Below, piece by piece: positions 10,515-18,911 of a stretch of DNA of 64,000 nucleotides. This DNA comes from an uncultured archaeon (GTDB lineage: Archaea; Thermoproteota; EX4484-205; JAAOZP01). The stretch covers positions 1-64,000 of the forward strand of contig CALIBN010000012.1 in assembly GCA_938045545.1 (NCBI GenBank), read 5' to 3'. Under the pieces are notes generated by a model. It was not told the DNA's origin. It was given only the letters and a program-made list of their open reading frames with translations, and ran no database searches. Each line of letters starts with the position of its first letter. Position 1 is the first letter of the stretch. The translations under genes and the position numbers were made by a program.

Positions 10515-10730
10515 ATGGTTAAGACTATCACTATAAACGACGAGGCCTACAGGGCTTTGGCCGAGCTTAAGGGAGAGGGTGAGAGCTTTAGCGAGGTTAT
10601 AATCAGGATTCTTAAGGGGAGGAGGGTTAATCTGGGGGATTTCTACGGAGTGTTTCGCGATAATGCGGATCTCTGGCTGAGGATTGAGAGGGAGATTCTG
10701 GAGGGTAGGAGGAGGGCTTCTTTGCGATGA
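10515..10730 (+). CDS. vapB: VapB antitoxin (DUF217-like)
   Basis: 71 residues beginning MVKTITINDEAYRALAEL and continuing KGEGESFSEVIIRIL, the pattern of archaeal DUF217-type antitoxins. A short C-terminal tail (LWLRIEREILEGRRRASLR) would wrap the toxin. The stop overlaps the toxin start (ATGA at 10727-10730), so the two are translationally coupled. Two palindromes flank its TATA box and probably mediate autoregulation. Confidence 0.85.
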   Translation: MVKTITINDEAYRALAELKGEGESFSEVIIRILKGRRVNLGDFYGVFRDNADLWLRIEREILEGRRRASLR

Positions 10731-11134
10731 GGCTGCTGGATACTTCGGCTATAATTAGTGTTCTGAGGGGGGATGCTGAGGCTAAGAGTATTCTGGGGAA
10801 GCCTGCTGAGGAGGGGCTTTGCACGACGACGATAACGCGTTTCGAGCTTTTCTCCAGAATATACCATAGGGGGCTTCTAAGGGAGGGGAGGGTGGTTAGG
10901 AGGCTGGTTAAGGGCCTGGTTCTCTTGCCGTTTGACGAGGAGTCTTCGGAGAAGGCTGCTGAAATCATGGGGTTCTTGCTTAGGGCGGGCAAGGCTGTCA
11001 ACGTTATTGATGTTTTGATCGCCGGCATCGCTGTGGCTAACGGCGTTGAAGAGATAGTGACGAGGGACAGGGATTTCAAGACTATTGAAGATATTTACGG
11101 CCATATGAAAGTAGTTTTGCTTGCTGGAGACTAA
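10727..11134 (+). CDS. vapC: VapC toxin (PIN-domain ribonuclease)
   Basis: 135 residues with all PIN acidic positions in place: RLLDTSAIIS (Asp), TTITRFELFS (Glu), NVIDVLIAGIA (Asp) and IVTRDRDF (Asp). These coordinate Mg2+ or Mn2+ for endoribonuclease action. Length is standard. It overlaps the upstream antitoxin by four bases. The truncated TBP copy at 11158-11233 follows it on the opposite strand. Confidence 0.92.
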   Translation: MRLLDTSAIISVLRGDAEAKSILGKPAEEGLCTTTITRFELFSRIYHRGLLREGRVVRRLVKGLVLLPFDEESSEKAAEIMGFLLRAGKAVNVIDVLIAGIAVANGVEEIVTRDRDFKTIEDIYGHMKVVLLAGD

Positions 11135-11233: not shown

Positions 11234-11308
11234 GCCAAGCGCGAATCGAAAGGTTCGTGATCACCGGCACGGGTAAAAATTTATATAAAAGATAAGGGTT
11301 ATTCACAT

Positions 11309-13609
11309 ATGAGAAAAGTAGTCTTATTCTACTTTCTTCTCTTTACTATCGGCTTCACTGGTTGCGTTTTCCTGTATTCTTCTCCAGGGCCTGGTCTCTG
11401 CACGGCCAGCCTCCAGCCAGTGGCGGATACATATGCTGCGCAAAATAATCCGAATGTGAACTACGGGTCTGAAACGTCGCTCATAGTTTCTCCGGGCTTA
11501 AAGGCTGTTTGCAGGACGTTGGTCAGGTTTGACTTGGCGCAAATACCGCCTGGCTCGAAGCTTGCCGGTGCTCAGCTTAAGCTCTACGTGGCCCGAACCG
11601 GGTATGCGGCTGGCAGGGGGACGTATGAATGCTACTTGCTGGATAGGGACTGGGCTGAAAGAACTGTGACTTGGAATAGTCAACCCGGCTCTGTCTCCGG
11701 GTTCGCCGTCTATTCAACAGTCCCAGCTGCCGGCAGCTGGATGACGTGGAACGTTGCATCATCAGTCAGCCAAATCCTAGCGGGAACCAGGTCCAACTTC
11801 GGATGGGGCGTAAGAGACCAGGCTGAGGATATGCGTGCTGAAATTGTTCCTTCAACCGTCTTCCCCTCCAAGGAAAACCCGACTAACAAGCCTATTCTTG
11901 AAATCTCGTTCTACCCGCCTAAGCTGGCAATATCCGGGCCTGCCTCAGGCTTTGTCGAAACATGGGTTAAGCTAACGGTTGAAAGAAGGGATGCTGACAA
12001 CCAGCCAATAACCCGGGGTGATCTCAGGGTTCAGCTTTCGTCCAGCTCAGCCTCAGCAAGGTTTGCGCTGTCTGAAGGAGGCTCGCAGATAACAGAGCTG
12101 ACCATTCCTAACGGGGCTTCGAAGAAAGACTTCTACTATTACGACACTAAGGTTGGTTCAGCCACGATAACCGCTGACACTAACCAGTATAGGGCTGATT
12201 ACTATGAGGAGGGCCGCTTCAGCATCACTCTTGGGGCTAGGGATGTTGAGGGGCCTAAGGTAACCATAAGGGCTATTCCGGAGAAAGTAAAAGACAAGGA
12301 GAGCGTGAGGGTGGTCGTCGATGCCTCGGACCCGAGCGGAATAAAAAAAGTCATGGTCATACAGCGGGGGATCGCGTTGGGCGGAAGCCCATGGGAGCAG
12401 CCCCTATTCATGGAGGCTTACACAGACCCTCTACAGGCAAGCTTCCATAGGGAGGTTGAGTCCGGACCGTTCCCCGGCATGCGGATGGTAGAGTTCGAAG
12501 CTGAGGCAATGGACAAGTATGGAAACATAGGGAGGAGTTCAACGAGCGTCACTATAATTCATCCCCCTCCGAAGAGGACCTGTGGATGCAGGATAAGCTA
12601 TTCGTTGAAAACGAAGGACGTTAAGGTTTGGACCCAGTGGGACTCAATCGCAACCGGCGATGTGGTCGGCGATGGAAGAGACGAGGTTATCGTGGCTCAG
12701 GATGACGAGGGTGGCAGACTGTTTGTCTACACGTGGAACGCTGAGGAAAATGCTCTCGAGCCGATGAAATTCTCGGGCAAAGCATTCACTAAGGTCAGAT
12801 TCACGCATTACGACAGGATGGCGGTTGGTAACGTGATGGGCGACGAGAAGGACGAGATCCTTATCGCAATAGACGAAGATGGAAAAGCGGGAATAATAGA
12901 CATCTACCAGGTTAAGCAGGCTGCTGACGGCTGTGAGCTCACCCTTGTTTCAAGCATAGACTTAGACGCGTTTGGATGTAAATTCACGCATTTCGACGCC
13001 CTCCTCGTGGGCAACGTTTTCAACGACGATAAGCAGGATGAAATAATTCTAGTGAGGGATGATGATGACAAGCTATTCGTCTTCGACCCTACTGCAACAG
13101 GCTCTTTCACCATGCATACTTTTACAGTGCCCGCGGGCTTCGACGAGTTCAGGTATACCGGGGAAACTGATAATGAGAATGATGATGACAACGGTCATGA
13201 TGAGATAGCTGTCGCCAACCTCTTTGGAGACGATGCTGAGGAGATAGTTTATGCGCCCAACCATGAGGATAAGCTGTACGTTTTCTCCTTCAAGCAATCG
13301 GGAGGAGCATGGGTGATGGAAGTGGCGTACAGGCTCCCTGTCGAATTCACGAAATACGATGCCATGAGCGTTGGCGACGTGCTTGGAGACCCTAGGCCTG
13401 AAATACTTTTCTTCAGGGATGATGACAGGGTCGTGCTGATATACGATGTCTTCCTTGGGCCGATAAAGCTTCAATACATCTTCTACTCCAAGTATGACGG
13501 CGTCGCAACCGGGGATGTAGTAGGACTGGGTAAGGGGCAGATACTGGTTGCTACGGACGACGAGAACGATATTCGCCTAGCATACTCGGAGGAACTCTGG
13601 GAGGGTTGA
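11309..13609 (+). CDS. Secreted DNRLRE / beta-propeller protein
   Basis: 766 residues. An N-terminal signal peptide (hydrophobic VVLFYFLLFTIGFTGCVFLY) is followed by a DNRLRE-type domain, residues about 35-200 (ADTYAAQNNPNVNYGSETS, RTLVRFDLAQIPPGSKLAGA, then WAERTVTWNSQP). Ig-like beta segments follow at about 205-420. At about 445-766 there are six or seven FG-GAP/VCBS-like repeats of the form xxxGDVxGDxxxEIxxxxDDxxxxxVY, which predict a calcium-binding beta-propeller as in integrin heads. An AATTTATATAAAA promoter sits at about 11275-11287. The stop is 3 bases before the next gene, so this is the first gene of a three-gene exported-protein operon. Likely a surface adhesin or carbohydrate-binding protein; the ligand is unknown. 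Confidence 0.8.
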   Translation: MRKVVLFYFLLFTIGFTGCVFLYSSPGPGLCTASLQPVADTYAAQNNPNVNYGSETSLIVSPGLKAVCRTLVRFDLAQIPPGSKLAGAQLKLYVARTGYAAGRGTYECYLLDRDWAERTVTWNSQPGSVSGFAVYSTVPAAGSWMTWNVASSVSQILAGTRSNFGWGVRDQAEDMRAEIVPSTVFPSKENPTNKPILEISFYPPKLAISGPASGFVETWVKLTVERRDADNQPITRGDLRVQLSSSSASARFALSEGGSQITELTIPNGASKKDFYYYDTKVGSATITADTNQYRADYYEEGRFSITLGARDVEGPKVTIRAIPEKVKDKESVRVVVDASDPSGIKKVMVIQRGIALGGSPWEQPLFMEAYTDPLQASFHREVESGPFPGMRMVEFEAEAMDKYGNIGRSSTSVTIIHPPPKRTCGCRISYSLKTKDVKVWTQWDSIATGDVVGDGRDEVIVAQDDEGGRLFVYTWNAEENALEPMKFSGKAFTKVRFTHYDRMAVGNVMGDEKDEILIAIDEDGKAGIIDIYQVKQAADGCELTLVSSIDLDAFGCKFTHFDALLVGNVFNDDKQDEIILVRDDDDKLFVFDPTATGSFTMHTFTVPAGFDEFRYTGETDNENDDDNGHDEIAVANLFGDDAEEIVYAPNHEDKLYVFSFKQSGGAWVMEVAYRLPVEFTKYDAMSVGDVLGDPRPEILFFRDDDRVVLIYDVFLGPIKLQYIFYSKYDGVATGDVVGLGKGQILVATDDENDIRLAYSEELWEG

Positions 13610-13612
13610 AAA

Positions 13613-15910
13613 ATGGAGAGTAGAAAGATATTCTCAATCATTATCCTGCTGTTGATACTGACTGCAGGCACACCCGGCTCTTCACCGGGACGAATAAGAG
13701 TATTAGGCAGCCCGGCTGGAGGTCCTGATCTGAAGGTTGACAGTGCAGTCTTCTTTCCACAACCCGTCGCCGGGCTAAGAACAAGGATGATTGTAACCGT
13801 AAGCAACAAGGGTAGTCCTGTTAAACAGCTGTTCTGGGTGTCAGTAAAATGGGGCGGATGCCAGCTTGTCAACGGTACGTATGGGCTTGACGGTGGGGCA
13901 ACAGCCAGTATTCTGTTCTATCCCCTGTTTCTACAGGCGGGGAAATACTCGCTTGAAGTGACTGTGGATCCCTACGGGGAGGTTATGGAGACGGATGAAA
14001 CGAATAACGTTCTAGTGCTTTGGCAGGAGGTTATACTTCCTAAAGCCGGGGGCGTGAAAGCTCCTCCTACTGAACTGGATTTTGAAAGCGAGGAAGCAGT
14101 ATGGGGTTATATTGGTAATCTGCCGAGTGGAGAACCATCTATGCATGCACTGCCTGACTACGTTTTAATGGGAAGGCTCGACCCCAATGATCCGAACTCG
14201 CCCTTCGAAGCGCAGGGAGAAACGAGTGCCTGCGGCACCACATCGCTGGCTGGTATACTGAGATACTTGTCCAAGAAGGATTCCAGCGTTTACAATCACA
14301 ATATCATAGATACGTGGGTCAGGGGGGGAGGTGAGATTGATGTATACAGTGAAGGTTTCTCTCTCGCAGACTACGCTAGAGGTAAAGGCTTCGAGGCGAG
14401 AGTATACGTGGATGGAACCTTCGAAGACGTAAAACGGTTTATCGACATGGGGATACCTGTGGAGATGTGTATAACGACTGACGGAAGCCACGATGAGATG
14501 AACGTTCTCAATGGCCACTGGATCGTTGCAGTATGCTACTGGGAGGATATGAACTACGGCACCATGATCGGCTACTATAATCCTTGGGGCCACTTGAGCG
14601 CGATTCCCCAGAGAAGGTTCGAACTATACTGGACAGAGCAAAACCTTCTGGGGATAACGCTGTGGAACAGGTTTTACGTCGCGATATGCAACAAACCAGC
14701 TCCCCCAGATATGCCTCCCAGCAACGCGGGTGCTCTTGAGAAATATCATGGTGCACTCGTAGAGGGTGTCAGCATTTTTTTAAACGAATTAGGCTCAAGC
14801 ATCAGGATGATAAAGTCTGGTGATGCAGGAGAAAAGATAAAGGGCTTAGGGCTCCTAATCGGGACCGTGATTTTTGGCTCCATGCTTCTTATTCCCGTCT
14901 CGCTGACGCTTGTTGCCGAATGGGTTTGGGAAGGAATAAAGGCGGCTGCTGAATTGATTTGGGAAGGGATAAAGGCTTTAGGCTGCAAGCTGTTCGGCTG
15001 GGGTTGCAAGAGTAAGAAAGAGTATTTCTACTATTTCTACTCGTCAAGTCCCTCTTGCGAATGCTCCAGTCTTTTAAACGACATGGTTAGGGTCGAGGCA
15101 GTCGGATACATATTCACCTCCCAGGTTGGAGACGCTGTTCCAGTCTACGAGTATGCTGAGGTGGATGAGCAGACCCGCGAGGTGATAAGATACTTCGTGT
15201 CGACAGACCCTAATTTGCCGGAGACTGGAGCCCCTGGTGTCAGAAGGTTCCTCTACGGGAGGCTCGGTTATCTTAATAAATCTGAGATCCAGGGGGTTCC
15301 AAACGAGAAGCTGGTTGATTATCTTAAAACGTATGGAATTGACTACGACGCATCTGTCTCAAACCTGTGGGTTTCCCAGTACTATCTGGAGGGTTCAAAA
15401 ATACTGTGGATGTTCAATATGACCAGTGAAACGTCTTGGCGCGCTTTCCTCAGCCCAGATGAAGCCGGAGGCACCAAGACTTTTCCGTACGTGGCTGTTG
15501 ACTATAAGGGGGAGAGCAGGGGGTATCACTTCACCAGGGACTACGTTGTCGGCTACGTGCATTACAACCATCTCCGGGGAACGGCGCCTCTCTACAGGTT
15601 TTACGACCCTGATAAGGAAGAGTTCTACCTCACTACTGATTTAAACGATGAGCCGAAGGAGCTCCGCCCTGTTAGGGAAATGGTTTTCTCCGGCGTGGTC
15701 GGGTATGTTTTTCTCGAGCAGAAGCCTGGTACTGTACCGCTTTACAAGTATCATGCTCATGAAAAGGGGGCGCACTACCTTTTCACCACGAAGGAGATTG
15801 AGTCTGACAAGTTCACCCGGCTCGGCGTAATCGGCTACGTGTACGAGTACGAGGAGGATTGCACCGTACCGCTCTGGCTCTTCTGCTTCAGACAGGTGAA
15901 GGAGGAGTGA
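13613..15910 (+). CDS. Secreted C39-like cysteine peptidase with CARDB and DUF5648-like repeats
   Basis: 765 residues. It has a signal peptide (FSIIILLLILTAGTPG) and a CARDB-like Ig domain at about 40-125 (DLKVDSAVFF... DETNNVLVLW). A papain-fold C39-type domain at about 190-345 shows catalytic Cys in QGETSACGTTSLAGIL, His in GHWIVAVCYW and the polar partner in GYYNPWGH. A hydrophobic segment at about 418-440 (LIGTVIFGSMLLIPVSLTL) is followed by aromatic and basic residues. The C-terminus has at least three copies of a module of the type GYVxxxxxGTxPLYRFYxxxxxEFYxTT, as in DUF5648/lectin-like repeats. The multi-domain plan suggests a membrane-anchored surface peptidase with a glycan-binding tail. 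It probably acts with the adhesin-like protein upstream (3-base gap) and the small membrane protein downstream. Confidence 0.75.
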   Translation: MESRKIFSIIILLLILTAGTPGSSPGRIRVLGSPAGGPDLKVDSAVFFPQPVAGLRTRMIVTVSNKGSPVKQLFWVSVKWGGCQLVNGTYGLDGGATASILFYPLFLQAGKYSLEVTVDPYGEVMETDETNNVLVLWQEVILPKAGGVKAPPTELDFESEEAVWGYIGNLPSGEPSMHALPDYVLMGRLDPNDPNSPFEAQGETSACGTTSLAGILRYLSKKDSSVYNHNIIDTWVRGGGEIDVYSEGFSLADYARGKGFEARVYVDGTFEDVKRFIDMGIPVEMCITTDGSHDEMNVLNGHWIVAVCYWEDMNYGTMIGYYNPWGHLSAIPQRRFELYWTEQNLLGITLWNRFYVAICNKPAPPDMPPSNAGALEKYHGALVEGVSIFLNELGSSIRMIKSGDAGEKIKGLGLLIGTVIFGSMLLIPVSLTLVAEWVWEGIKAAAELIWEGIKALGCKLFGWGCKSKKEYFYYFYSSSPSCECSSLLNDMVRVEAVGYIFTSQVGDAVPVYEYAEVDEQTREVIRYFVSTDPNLPETGAPGVRRFLYGRLGYLNKSEIQGVPNEKLVDYLKTYGIDYDASVSNLWVSQYYLEGSKILWMFNMTSETSWRAFLSPDEAGGTKTFPYVAVDYKGESRGYHFTRDYVVGYVHYNHLRGTAPLYRFYDPDKEEFYLTTDLNDEPKELRPVREMVFSGVVGYVFLEQKPGTVPLYKYHAHEKGAHYLFTTKEIESDKFTRLGVIGYVYEYEEDCTVPLWLFCFRQVKEE

Positions 15911-15928
15911 TTCCGGAGGCTGGGGAAA

Positions 15929-16369
15929 ATGGTTCGTGAGAAGTTTGCAAAGGGAACACTGGGTTTCGGAATCCTGGTTACGCTTCTATTCATAGTGGTT
16001 TCCAACATGGTGGCGATATTCCTGAGTCTCTACCTGTTGGTCTTAATCATGCCGATCCTAGCGGGGCTCGTAATAGGATTCTACGCGAAGGGGAACAGTT
16101 TGGCCAAGGGGAAAGCTGGCTTCAAGGGGGTTTTCGCCGCCACGCTCATACTACTCCTCTTGTCCGCGCCGGTCATCATAATGGCTTTTTCAGAGATAGT
16201 AGCGTTATGGACCGCCATTCCGTTGATCCTACTAGCGGTTTCTCCAATCGTGATGGGGCTTCTGGGCTTCGTCGGAGGCTTGATGAGCGGGATGTTAATA
16301 AAGCTGGCTAAGCGGCCTAAATACGCGGAGGAGCTTCCACCACCTCCACCTCAGGCTCCATCAACATAG
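15929..16369 (+). CDS. Small four-helix membrane protein
   Basis: 146 residues with four hydrophobic segments (residues about 12-30, 33-50, 65-88 and 95-125) and a short proline-rich tail (ELPPPPPQAPST) likely on the cytoplasmic side. It begins 18 bases after the peptidase gene and is surely co-transcribed. GFYAKGNSLAKGKAGFKGVF between helices resembles DUF5518-like archaeal membrane proteins, but this is uncertain. It may anchor or export the two secreted partners; that role is inferred from position only. Confidence 0.6.
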   Translation: MVREKFAKGTLGFGILVTLLFIVVSNMVAIFLSLYLLVLIMPILAGLVIGFYAKGNSLAKGKAGFKGVFAATLILLLLSAPVIIMAFSEIVALWTAIPLILLAVSPIVMGLLGFVGGLMSGMLIKLAKRPKYAEELPPPPPQAPST

Positions 16370-16551: not shown

Positions 16552-17004
16552 TTAAGGTGTTAGCTGGTCTGGCGTTATGATTGTGTCTTTCAAACCCTTC
16601 ACACGTATGAATTCCCTTAGCTCTTTATCTAATGTGAGCAGTTTCAGGTTGAAATGGGCTGAGCTTGCGTAGAGTAGGTTGTCAACCATATCTCTGTGGC
16701 CTAGTGAGTAAAGCCTTAGGGCCTCGTTGAAGACTTGAGGATCCTCCTTGACTTCCCCGTACCTGCCGCTCTCCATGATGCTTCTCAGCCCCGTGTTGAA
16801 AGCATCGTCTACGACTCCGCCTGTTAGCTTGGCTACCACCCAGAGTGCCTCTAATATGCTGAAGCGTGAGTAGAGTGTTTCTACACCAGTTTCCGCAAGC
16901 TTCTTTAAGCCTTCAACAGCCTCTCTTCCAACATCGATCCCGAGGGAGGGGAGTATGAAGGATGTATCAAGCAGGATTCTCAGTCTGTTTTGCCTGCTCC
17001 TCAA
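16552..17004 (-). CDS. vapC: PIN-domain protein (VapC-type toxin)
   Basis: About 150 residues from TTG 17004. PIN residues: RILLDTSFILP (Asp), SRFSILEALW (Glu), HRDMVDNLLYASS (Asp) and LTLDKELREF (Asp). It overlaps the AbrB-type antitoxin gene by 38 bases, so translation is coupled. The N-terminus of a decayed duplicate is found at about 18953-19070. Confidence 0.87.
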   Translation of the reverse strand: MRSRQNRLRILLDTSFILPSLGIDVGREAVEGLKKLAETGVETLYSRFSILEALWVVAKLTGGVVDDAFNTGLRSIMESGRYGEVKEDPQVFNEALRLYSLGHRDMVDNLLYASSAHFNLKLLTLDKELREFIRVKGLKDTIITPDQLTP

Positions 17005-17221
17005 GGCTTATCGCCTCTACTTCCTCAGGCTTTATTGAAACGAATTTCTTCCCGACTGTGGCAAGCTCTATGGGGTCGCGGATTATTTCCAAGATTATGC
17101 TTTCTCCCGAGACTCTGAGCATCACCCTATCACCCTCCTTTATGCCGATGGCCTTTGCGACGGCCTTAGGAAGGTAGATAGCGTATTTTTTTCCGATACG
17201 CGTTTCTACAGTCAGACTCAC
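16967..17221 (-). CDS. AbrB/SpoVT-type antitoxin
   Basis: 84 residues from GTG 17221: SLTVETRIGKKYAIYLPKAV followed by GIKEGDRVMLRVSGESIILE, a swapped-hairpin AbrB fold used by VapB-type antitoxins and transcription factors. The C-terminal tail (PEEVEAISLEEQAKQT) would bind the toxin encoded directly downstream. An inverted repeat around its TATA box suggests self-repression. Confidence 0.88.
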   Translation of the reverse strand: MSLTVETRIGKKYAIYLPKAVAKAIGIKEGDRVMLRVSGESIILEIIRDPIELATVGKKFVSIKPEEVEAISLEEQAKQTENPA

Positions 17222-17276: not shown

Positions 17277-17388
17277 AATTCTGAAAAATCTGAAAAAAAC
17301 GGGTGTCCTTTAAAGCAGTTTTGGGCGTTTTCTCTAGGTTTTTATGTTTTTCATCGGTTTTGACTTCCTGATAGAATGTATTTTCATG

Positions 17389-17416
17389 GTTATCATAAAT
17401 GATAACTTTAAATATA
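17389..17416 (+). promoter_or_regulatory. Operator palindrome and TATA box of abiE
   Basis: A perfect inverted repeat GTTATCAT-aa-ATGATAAC (17389-17406) abuts the TATA box CTTTAAATATA (17406-17416). AbiEi antitoxins are known to repress their own operon by binding inverted repeats upstream, so this is the likely site. The box predicts transcription start near 17438, which decides the GTG 17440 start. Confidence 0.65.
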
Positions 17417-17439
17417 CGAAAACTGCTGCTTCGATTCTT

Positions 17440-18156
17440 GTGAGAAGCGAGAGGCTCATCAGGATGCTGCGGGATTCTAGGCTTAGTGTTTTTTCTCTAG
17501 GCGATCTGGTGAGGATTTTGAATAAGGATGAGGGTTATGTCAAGGTTTTGCTGAATAGGCTTGTGGAGAGAGGTCTTCTGGTTAGGGTTGAGAGGAACAA
17601 GTATTCGCTTCCGGGTCAGAGTGTTTTCAGCGTTGCTTCTCTTCTTGTTTTCCCTTCCTACGTTTCCTTTATTTCAGCGTATTCTTACTATGGTTTGACT
17701 GTGCAGATTCCTTCAACGGTTTTCGTCGTCTGCTTGAGGCAGAGGAAGGAGGTTTTCTATGAGGGGTGCCGGGTTAGGTTCGTTAAGTTTTCTAGGAGAA
17801 GGTTCTTCGGGTACTTGAAGGAGTATGTGGAGGGTAAGACGGTTTTTATCGCTGAGGTTGAGAAGGCTGTTCTGGATAGTCTGCTGCTGCCGAGGTATTG
17901 TCCTGTGTCTGAAACTTTTTCAGCGTTGAGGGAGGCTGGGTTGAACCGTGAGAGGCTTCTGGAGTATGCTGTGAGGCTCGGCTCGAGGGTGGTGGTAAAG
18001 AGGCTTGGATACTTGCTGGAGCTTGCCGGCCTGGATGTTTACCCTTTTTTGAAAAGCCTTGTCGATAAGAATTATGAGCTGCTTAATCCTCTTAAGCCTT
18101 CTGTTGGCGAGAGGGTTGAGAAGTGGAGGCTCATTGTTAACGAGGTGCTTGAGTAA
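17440..18156 (+). CDS. abiEi: AbiEi-type antitoxin/repressor (type IV TA)
   Basis: GTG 17440 is chosen as start because the TATA box (17406-17416) lies about 27 nt upstream; the open frame back to 17344 would begin before the promoter. The 238-residue product has an N-terminal winged helix (FSLGDLVRILNKDEGYVKVLLNRLVERGLLVRVERN with a following wing) and an AbiEi C-terminal domain (EVEKAVLDSLLLPRY is characteristic). It neutralises the AbiEii nucleotidyltransferase indirectly and represses the operon. Stop and next start overlap by one base (TAATG). Confidence 0.85.
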   Translation: MRSERLIRMLRDSRLSVFSLGDLVRILNKDEGYVKVLLNRLVERGLLVRVERNKYSLPGQSVFSVASLLVFPSYVSFISAYSYYGLTVQIPSTVFVVCLRQRKEVFYEGCRVRFVKFSRRRFFGYLKEYVEGKTVFIAEVEKAVLDSLLLPRYCPVSETFSALREAGLNRERLLEYAVRLGSRVVVKRLGYLLELAGLDVYPFLKSLVDKNYELLNPLKPSVGERVEKWRLIVNEVLE

Positions 18157-18911
18157 TGCTTGACAGGGGGAGGCTTCAGGAGTTAACCAGGGTTTCCGGC
18201 TTTAGCCTTTGGCAGACGGAGAAGGATTACCTGCAGCATGTTTTCCTCTTGTTTCTCTCGGTTGAGTCCAAGGGGGGCTTCGTGTTTAAAGGAGGCACAG
18301 CTCTGCAGAAGGTTTACGGTTTGAACAGGTTCAGCCTGGACTTGGATTTTACTTCTAGAAACAGCAATGAGGAAAGGGTTGTGAAAAGAATAGCAAGTGA
18401 TATTGAGGATTTCGGTTTTCCTGCAGAGTTTTCCAGAGTGGAGAAGTTTAGAGACATAGGTAAAACGCTGGTCTTAAGGATCCGTGGTCCTCTTTTCGAC
18501 GGTTCTGACAGGAGCATAACCCTGCTGAGGATTGAGATCAGCCTGAGGAGAGACCTTGTTTTGGAGCCGGAGGTAAAGGAGGTTGTGCCGATATATCCTG
18601 ATGTGAGGCCATACTTGTTGCAGGTGATGAGGCTGGAGGAGATTCTCGCTGAGAAAGTAAGGGCGATTTTTCACCGGGGGAGGGCTAGCGACCTTTATGA
18701 CCTCTGGTTTCTAGCTAGGAAAGGAGTGAAAATGGATTTGGAGCTGGTTAACGCTAAATTAAGCTATTATAAGATGGTTTTCAGCGGGGAGGAGTTTAGA
18801 AGAAAGGTCATGGGGATGGAGAACACATGGTTGGAGGAATTGAAACCAGTAGTAACCTTCGTTCCACATTTTAAAACGGTTATAAGAGATATCGAGGTTT
18901 TTCTTCGATGA
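18156..18911 (+). CDS. abiEii: AbiEii-type nucleotidyltransferase toxin
   Basis: 251 residues. Motif I is intact: FVFKGGTALQKVYGLNRFSLDLDF (GG-TAL...DxD), typical of DUF1814/AbiEii toxins. The second motif EKVRAIFHRGRASDLYDLWFL (KxxR...DxxD) is also intact. Such toxins transfer nucleotides to tRNA or other targets and give abortive phage resistance in bacteria. The pair is complete and looks functional. Confidence 0.9.
   Translation: MLDRGRLQELTRVSGFSLWQTEKDYLQHVFLLFLSVESKGGFVFKGGTALQKVYGLNRFSLDLDFTSRNSNEERVVKRIASDIEDFGFPAEFSRVEKFRDIGKTLVLRIRGPLFDGSDRSITLLRIEISLRRDLVLEPEVKEVVPIYPDVRPYLLQVMRLEEILAEKVRAIFHRGRASDLYDLWFLARKGVKMDLELVNAKLSYYKMVFSGEEFRRKVMGMENTWLEELKPVVTFVPHFKTVIRDIEVFLR

Follow-up and report, generated by a model that had tools for sequence, protein, structure and literature searches.

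Gene organization and genomic context

The window (the whole stretch of DNA analysed, 64,000 nucleotides) belongs to the genome of a hot-spring archaeon, Candidatus Brockarchaeota G000. From 11309 to 16369, it carries three open reading frames on the plus strand, p1, p2 and p3, preceded by a TATA-like box:

11278..11289, + strand: TATA-like box AATTTATATAAA, read from the sequence
11309..13609, + strand: p1, exported CBM96/DNRLRE – Ig-like – FG-GAP propeller protein (766 aa)
13613..15910, + strand: p2, exported CARDB – C39-like peptidase – hydrophobic segment – DUF5648 protein (765 aa)
15929..16369, + strand: p3, membrane protein with a RPKYAEELPPPPP tail (146 aa)

As a preliminary description of this DNA had proposed, the three genes are closely spaced: according to the ORF coordinates, 3 bases separate p1 from p2 and 18 bases separate p2 from p3. 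The position of the box, whose centre lies 25 bases before the p1 ATG, implies a leaderless transcript, and a similar box, AAATTTATATAG, precedes p1 in the related genome G004. The locus is more than a chance array of frames. Indeed, both the open frames and the gene order are conserved. The sequences are under purifying selection wherever dS can be measured: dN/dS lies for the most part around 0.1-0.3 and peaks at 0.6, in the signal peptide. A cluster of toxin–antitoxin genes surrounds the cassette in the window, namely VapC (10727-11134), VapBC (16552-17221) and AbiEi/AbiEii (17344-18911). On the corresponding contig of the genome G003, VapBC is absent between p3 and AbiEi.

The p1 protein and its relatives

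Like p2, p1 has a signal-peptide-like start (Kyte-Doolittle scan); it is devoid of a C-terminal membrane anchor. Its two recognizable domains are:

11405..11908, + strand: CBM96/DNRLRE domain, residues 33-200 (Pfam PF24517, E=1.5e-26)
12641..13588, + strand: FG-GAP-type propeller, about residues 445-760 (FG-GAP_3, E=2.2e-7)

The N-terminal domain also matches DNRLRE (E=9.8e-30) and a solved DNRLRE relative, 8wab (E=1.7e-13). Six FG-GAP-type motifs can be counted by eye in the propeller, one stretch of which is scored by Pfam; this is in line with the DNRLRE domain and the six or seven FG-GAP-like repeats initially described. As the founding member of CBM96 is an alginate-binding module (PMC9971899), the corresponding domain of p1 may, by analogy, bind a glycan. 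Calcium binding by p1 is also probable.

The N-terminal ~300 aa of p1 are common to a family of exported paralogues, with seven matches in G000, including p1 itself; the identity of p1 to the paralogues is 33-42%. About half of the ten paralogues inspected across the order end with a membrane helix, basic residues and a poly-Pro stretch. More generally, the CBM96-Ig surface proteins constitute an expanded family in Brockarchaeota whose members end in a transmembrane segment, RRRK and a poly-proline cytoplasmic tail (L031:4979-7579, L035:3429-6152, L037:5174-7714, L039:5966-8551 and others), and it is conceivable that a single partner binds these tails in common. One CBM96 paralogue is adjoined, in three genomes, by a conserved membrane protein that has a SHOCT-like tail and no Pfam match (L031:4076-4867, L035:2524-3318, L040:3719-4600).

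Orthologues set aside, the propellers nearest to that of p1 in a search of the phylum lie inside C25 (gingipain-type) peptidases of G007 and G287. In both proteins (L135:7-4630 from G007:C16 and L136:2566-7071 from G287:C46), an FG-GAP propeller is inserted between parts of the peptidase, and the gene lies beside one encoding a PKD-domain membrane protein. This gene pair is conserved in two archaeal families; G007 is a congener of G000, and G287 belongs to another family. A Pfam scan finds no Peptidase_C25 domain in p1 or p2. Related propellers therefore accompany exported cysteine peptidases of two unrelated families, C25 in these proteins and C39-like in p2, next to which p1 is encoded.

The p2 and p3 proteins

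The CARDB domain, mid-protein hydrophobic segment and DUF5648 domain that had been proposed for p2 are all present, together with a C39-like domain:

13724..14014, + strand: CARDB domain, residues 38-134 (Pfam PF07705, E=5e-10; PDB 2l0d, E=5e-6)
14201..14692, + strand: C39-like papain-fold domain (Pfam, alignment, structure model)
14231-14233, 14516-14518 and 14579-14581, + strand: Cys207, His302 and Asn323
14834..14929, + strand: hydrophobic segment, residues 408-439, with a Trp-rich stretch after it (Kyte-Doolittle scan)
15554..15847, + strand: DUF5648, residues 648-745 (PF18885, E=4e-8)

The Peptidase_C39_2 profile (PF13529) scores 24.4 bits on the p2 of the window, barely above its curated cut-off of 24, and 37.5 bits on a 53%-identical orthologue (L049). 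Cys207, His302 and Asn323 are retained in all four p2 orthologues, so that relatives have not lost the triad. Among 17 C39-like domains from archaeal loci, the invariant positions are the Cys, one Tyr, one Pro and the His, the Cys and His being Cys207 and His302 of p2; Asn323 aligns where several homologues carry Asp. A model built from the 17-row alignment (pLDDT 82.2) matches, in Foldseek searches of the PDB, the staphopains best (E 1e-7), then the pseudomurein endoisopeptidase PeiR, PCAT1 and ComA, with a fold-match probability of 1.00 and only 10-20% sequence identity to the solved structures. Its viral matches are mainly uncharacterized proteins, lysozymes and endolysins. The model and the residue conservation support a papain-like fold with intact putative catalytic residues, in agreement with the C39-like Cys/His/Asn domain first put forward. 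A bacteriocin-processing ABC transporter with a C39 domain (PCAT/ComA type) can be discarded, as all three proteins lack an ABC domain in a Pfam scan. A literature search brought up no combination of C39 with CARDB in archaea. A separate small C39-like protein is conserved in all three cassette-bearing congeners (L096 in G003:C83, L097 in G000:C2 and L098 in G004:C46).

Upstream of DUF5648, residues 471-647, which no model scores, resemble additional divergent repeats, which are probably present at 493-647. DUF5648 is a three-bladed (beta3-alpha)3 propeller to which glycan binding has been ascribed by inference (PMC12853789, PMC11299179), and the label 'lectin-type repeats' of the preliminary description was corrected accordingly. 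By analogy, the DUF5648 end of p2 may bind a glycan. The hydrophobic stretch 408-439 is kept in the four orthologues. As cleavage of the signal peptide and a single membrane crossing at this stretch would put DUF5648 in the cytoplasm, a hairpin or a peripheral contact with the membrane is assumed. An AlphaFold model of full-length p2, based on a four-row alignment, was discarded (pLDDT 33).

The p3 protein matches no family. A Kyte-Doolittle scan alone delineates two long hydrophobic blocks with room for four helices, so that p3 is probably a four-helix membrane protein; together with the RPKYAEELPPPPP tail, this is consistent with the small four-TM protein with a proline-rich end suggested earlier. 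The tail is similar to the poly-Pro ends of several p1 paralogues, which follow a transmembrane segment and RRRK; p1 lacks such an anchor, and p3 may supply it.

Distribution of the cassette

Homologues of p2 were sought in three ways: a search with p2 in 101 relatives, a search with a p2 alignment in 398 genomes sampled from the phylum, and a scan of genome contigs. In the 101 relatives and the 398 genomes, full-length p2 was found in three congeners only, G000, G003 and G004; the other matches in the phylum cover CARDB, apart from two, a short match at the C-terminus and another at the N-terminus. The contig scan added a distant MAG labelled 'Thermoproteota archaeon' (G398, locus L049), whose p2 is 51-53% identical. 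The order p1-p2-p3 is found in all of these p2-bearing genomes (4/4), with gaps of 3 and 18 bases or, in G398, an 8-base overlap of p1 and p2, which means that homologues occur together rather than apart. Contig ends truncate two of the copies: only the final 21 residues of p1 are left in G003 (100% identical), and p3 is incomplete in G398 (86 aa, 45% identical). Intact p3 occurs only beside p1 and p2 in the 398 genomes.

Between G398 and the genus, L15e is 55% identical and p1 and p2 are 52-53% identical, whereas the L15e of two order-mates reaches 60-61%; these values hint at a horizontal transfer without proving it. In viral contigs, phages and plasmids, the p2 similarities are limited to two Streptomyces plasmids with CARDB-like matches, and a viral or plasmid origin of the cassette has no support. 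PADLOC, which covers known anti-phage defence systems, gave no match at E 0.1. All recognized parts of the cassette belong to known families, but Pfam, NCBIfam, PADLOC and the searched literature offer no name for their conserved combination, as the preliminary description had supposed.

An accessory element that changes location

The cassette is accessory and patchily distributed, a feature newly recognized here. In G004, it sits between the genes encoding an Obg-type GTPase and ribosomal protein L15e. The same GTPase/L15e site is found without the cassette in G005 and on a second contig of G004, C13, whose end (L062:7242-7520) is about 91% identical to G004:C18 except that the cassette is missing; this contig probably comes from a second strain mixed into the G004 MAG. 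In G000 and G003, the intact cassettes adjoin AbiEi/AbiEii genes, and all that the L15e site retains of the cassette is a relic of 122 bases from the p3 3' end, 81-82% identical to the p3 of G004. Both relics are also detected by the p3 profile (E=0.005 and 1.4e-5). Therefore, the cassette, or at least p3, was formerly present at the L15e site in these genomes and is now elsewhere or gone. Globally, the L15e/GTPase region (L063, L059, L064, L060, L061, L062) is variable: it holds the cassette in G004, is near-empty in G005, contains a p3 relic together with a decayed gene in both G000 and G003, and carries a reverse-strand dehydrogenase-like gene in G007.

Exchange of the putative catalytic block of p2

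The low dS between chromosomal genes of G000 and G003 (0.10 for leuA, L15e and the GTPase; 0.06-0.12 for the AbiE genes) indicates that they are sister genomes. Against this background, one part of p2 stands apart:

13718..14977, + strand: exchanged block of p2, about codons 36-455, comprising CARDB, the C39-like domain and the hydrophobic segment (dS, G000 vs G003)

Within this block, dS reaches 2.4 in CARDB, is saturated in the C39 domain and amounts to 1.5 in the hydrophobic part, whereas it is 0.12 in the signal-peptide part and 0.24-0.29, somewhat above background, in the DUF5648 parts. Nucleotide identity is reduced from about codon 36 to about codon 455, after which it recovers sharply. 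The C39 domains of G000 and G004 are 83% identical, that of G003 being 59% identical to each. It thus seems, from these comparisons, that a block from a distant allele replaced the local one in G003, an exchange first noticed here. It is seen in a single MAG pair, and the G003 contig is 7.5 kb long, so that an assembly chimera is possible; the frame and the active-site residues are intact. By contrast with the block, p3 has a dS of 0.15 and 91% identity between the two genomes. As p3 is unchanged while the block is swapped, it is unlikely to be a cognate immunity protein, which weakens the toxin–immunity form of the idea that the cassette attacks neighbouring cells.

Possible functions of the cassette

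The interpretation given in the preliminary description, of a cassette that builds or processes a surface structure or else attacks neighbouring cells, is partly supported. We consider that the operon has about an even chance of encoding an exported, envelope-associated cysteine-peptidase apparatus aimed at glycans, with p1 as adhesin and p3 as membrane partner. According to this model, the signal peptide of p2 would direct its secretion, its C39-like domain (Cys207/His302/Asn323) would cut an extracellular protein or a peptide link, and its DUF5648 end would bind a glycan and thereby position the enzyme on its target. As the partner adhesin, p1 would bind polysaccharide through CBM96, and its FG-GAP propeller would dock either the substrate or the peptidase, while p3 would keep the exported proteins attached to the cell. 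Most likely, the apparatus would cut glycoproteins that are extracellular or at a surface, whether on biomass, in the matrix or on the cell's own coat. Several points count against this model: the C39_2 score of p2 in the window barely passes the cut-off, a single membrane crossing at 408-439 would leave DUF5648 in the cytoplasm, and the likeness of the p3 tail to those of the p1 paralogues could be generic.

Antagonism appears unlikely. Here, p2 would be a secreted or contact weapon whose DUF5648 end aims at a competitor glycan and whose papain domain cuts a peptide link of the envelope, p1 and p3 displaying or tolerating it. In its favour, one group of BSAP antibacterial toxins ends in DUF5648, the C39 model matches PeiR and phage endolysins, and bacteria-killing hydrolases are made by archaea (PMC12352652). 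The cassette is also patchy and relocating, lies here near VapC, VapBC and AbiE genes, and has had the catalytic block of p2 swapped while the remainder was kept. Against antagonism, p3 did not change with the block, unlike a cognate immunity gene. Furthermore, the Pfam scan finds neither MACPF nor a known peptidoglycan-binding domain, PADLOC is empty, and p1 is similar to housekeeping surface paralogues. The negative immunity result and the resemblance of p1 to ordinary surface proteins are the main grounds for preferring cleavage of extracellular or own-surface glycoproteins over attack. A bolder version is rather improbable: a relocating surface weapon, used against competing cells, in which close relatives swap divergent papain-fold blocks while the glycan-aiming end and the membrane partner stay conserved, and which has no specific immunity gene.

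Equally improbable in our opinion, p2 could be a processing peptidase or transpeptidase acting on p1 or another surface protein of the cell, p3 serving as membrane platform. The genes are indeed adjacent and co-oriented in a conserved order, and domains of the C39 type serve elsewhere in leader-peptide processing, ComA and PCAT1 being among the structural matches; but p2 has no fused ABC transporter, a C39 cut site was not identified in p1, and in G003, the sole genome with a swapped block, the contig leaves out most of p1, so that co-variation with p1 is out of sight. Finally, it is still less probable that the C39-like domain is a mere binding scaffold and that the cassette does no more than attach cells to polysaccharide, since, although the majority of their domains are binding modules, Cys, His and Asn are kept down to 53% identity under strong constraint.

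Brockarchaeota are reported to encode many extracellular peptidases lacking assigned substrates (PMC8065059), and one such candidate now gains a conserved set of partners and a predicted catalytic site. Should both the aiming at glycans and the exchange of blocks prove real, p2 would be a surface enzyme of a kind uncommon in archaea, changing its catalytic end but conserving the aiming one, and FG-GAP propellers would be tied to cysteine peptidases of two unrelated families.

Comparison with known systems

DUF5648 lies at the C-terminus in one group of Bacteroidales BSAP toxins, including glycan-targeting members, and it is also found in GH70 enzymes and in one GH25 endolysin (PMC12853789, PMC11299179, PMC13379245). 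All these proteins resemble p2 by a C-terminal DUF5648 propeller behind an effector or enzyme domain; p2 differs in being archaeal and a putative peptidase, and in being devoid of MACPF, GH70 and GH25. Since MACPF is common to all BSAPs (PMC12853789), p2 is not a BSAP pore-forming toxin, despite the DUF5648 that it shares with the subgroup. The modular archaeal peptidoglycan hydrolases (PMC12352652) are likewise exported archaeal hydrolases with a presumed envelope-binding module, but the Pfam matches of p2 include no recognized peptidoglycan-cleaving or peptidoglycan-binding domain, and assignment to this group was rejected.

With Peptidase_C39_2 proteins, staphopains, PeiR and PCAT1, p2 has in common the predicted fold, the catalytic Cys and His in register and a score above the family cut-off. 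It differs by its Cys-His-Asn, where several homologues have Asp, and by the position of the domain, between CARDB on one side and the hydrophobic segment and DUF5648 on the other. The membrane-anchored CBM96-Ig paralogues of Brockarchaeota (e.g. L031:4979-7579) are homologous to the N-terminal ~300 residues of p1, but they continue with Ig-like domains and end in a membrane anchor, whereas p1 ends in a propeller. Lastly, the C25 peptidases with an FG-GAP propeller (L135, L136) also link an exported cysteine peptidase to a related propeller; the cassette has no PKD partner, its peptidase is C39-like instead of C25, and its propeller and peptidase are encoded by separate genes.
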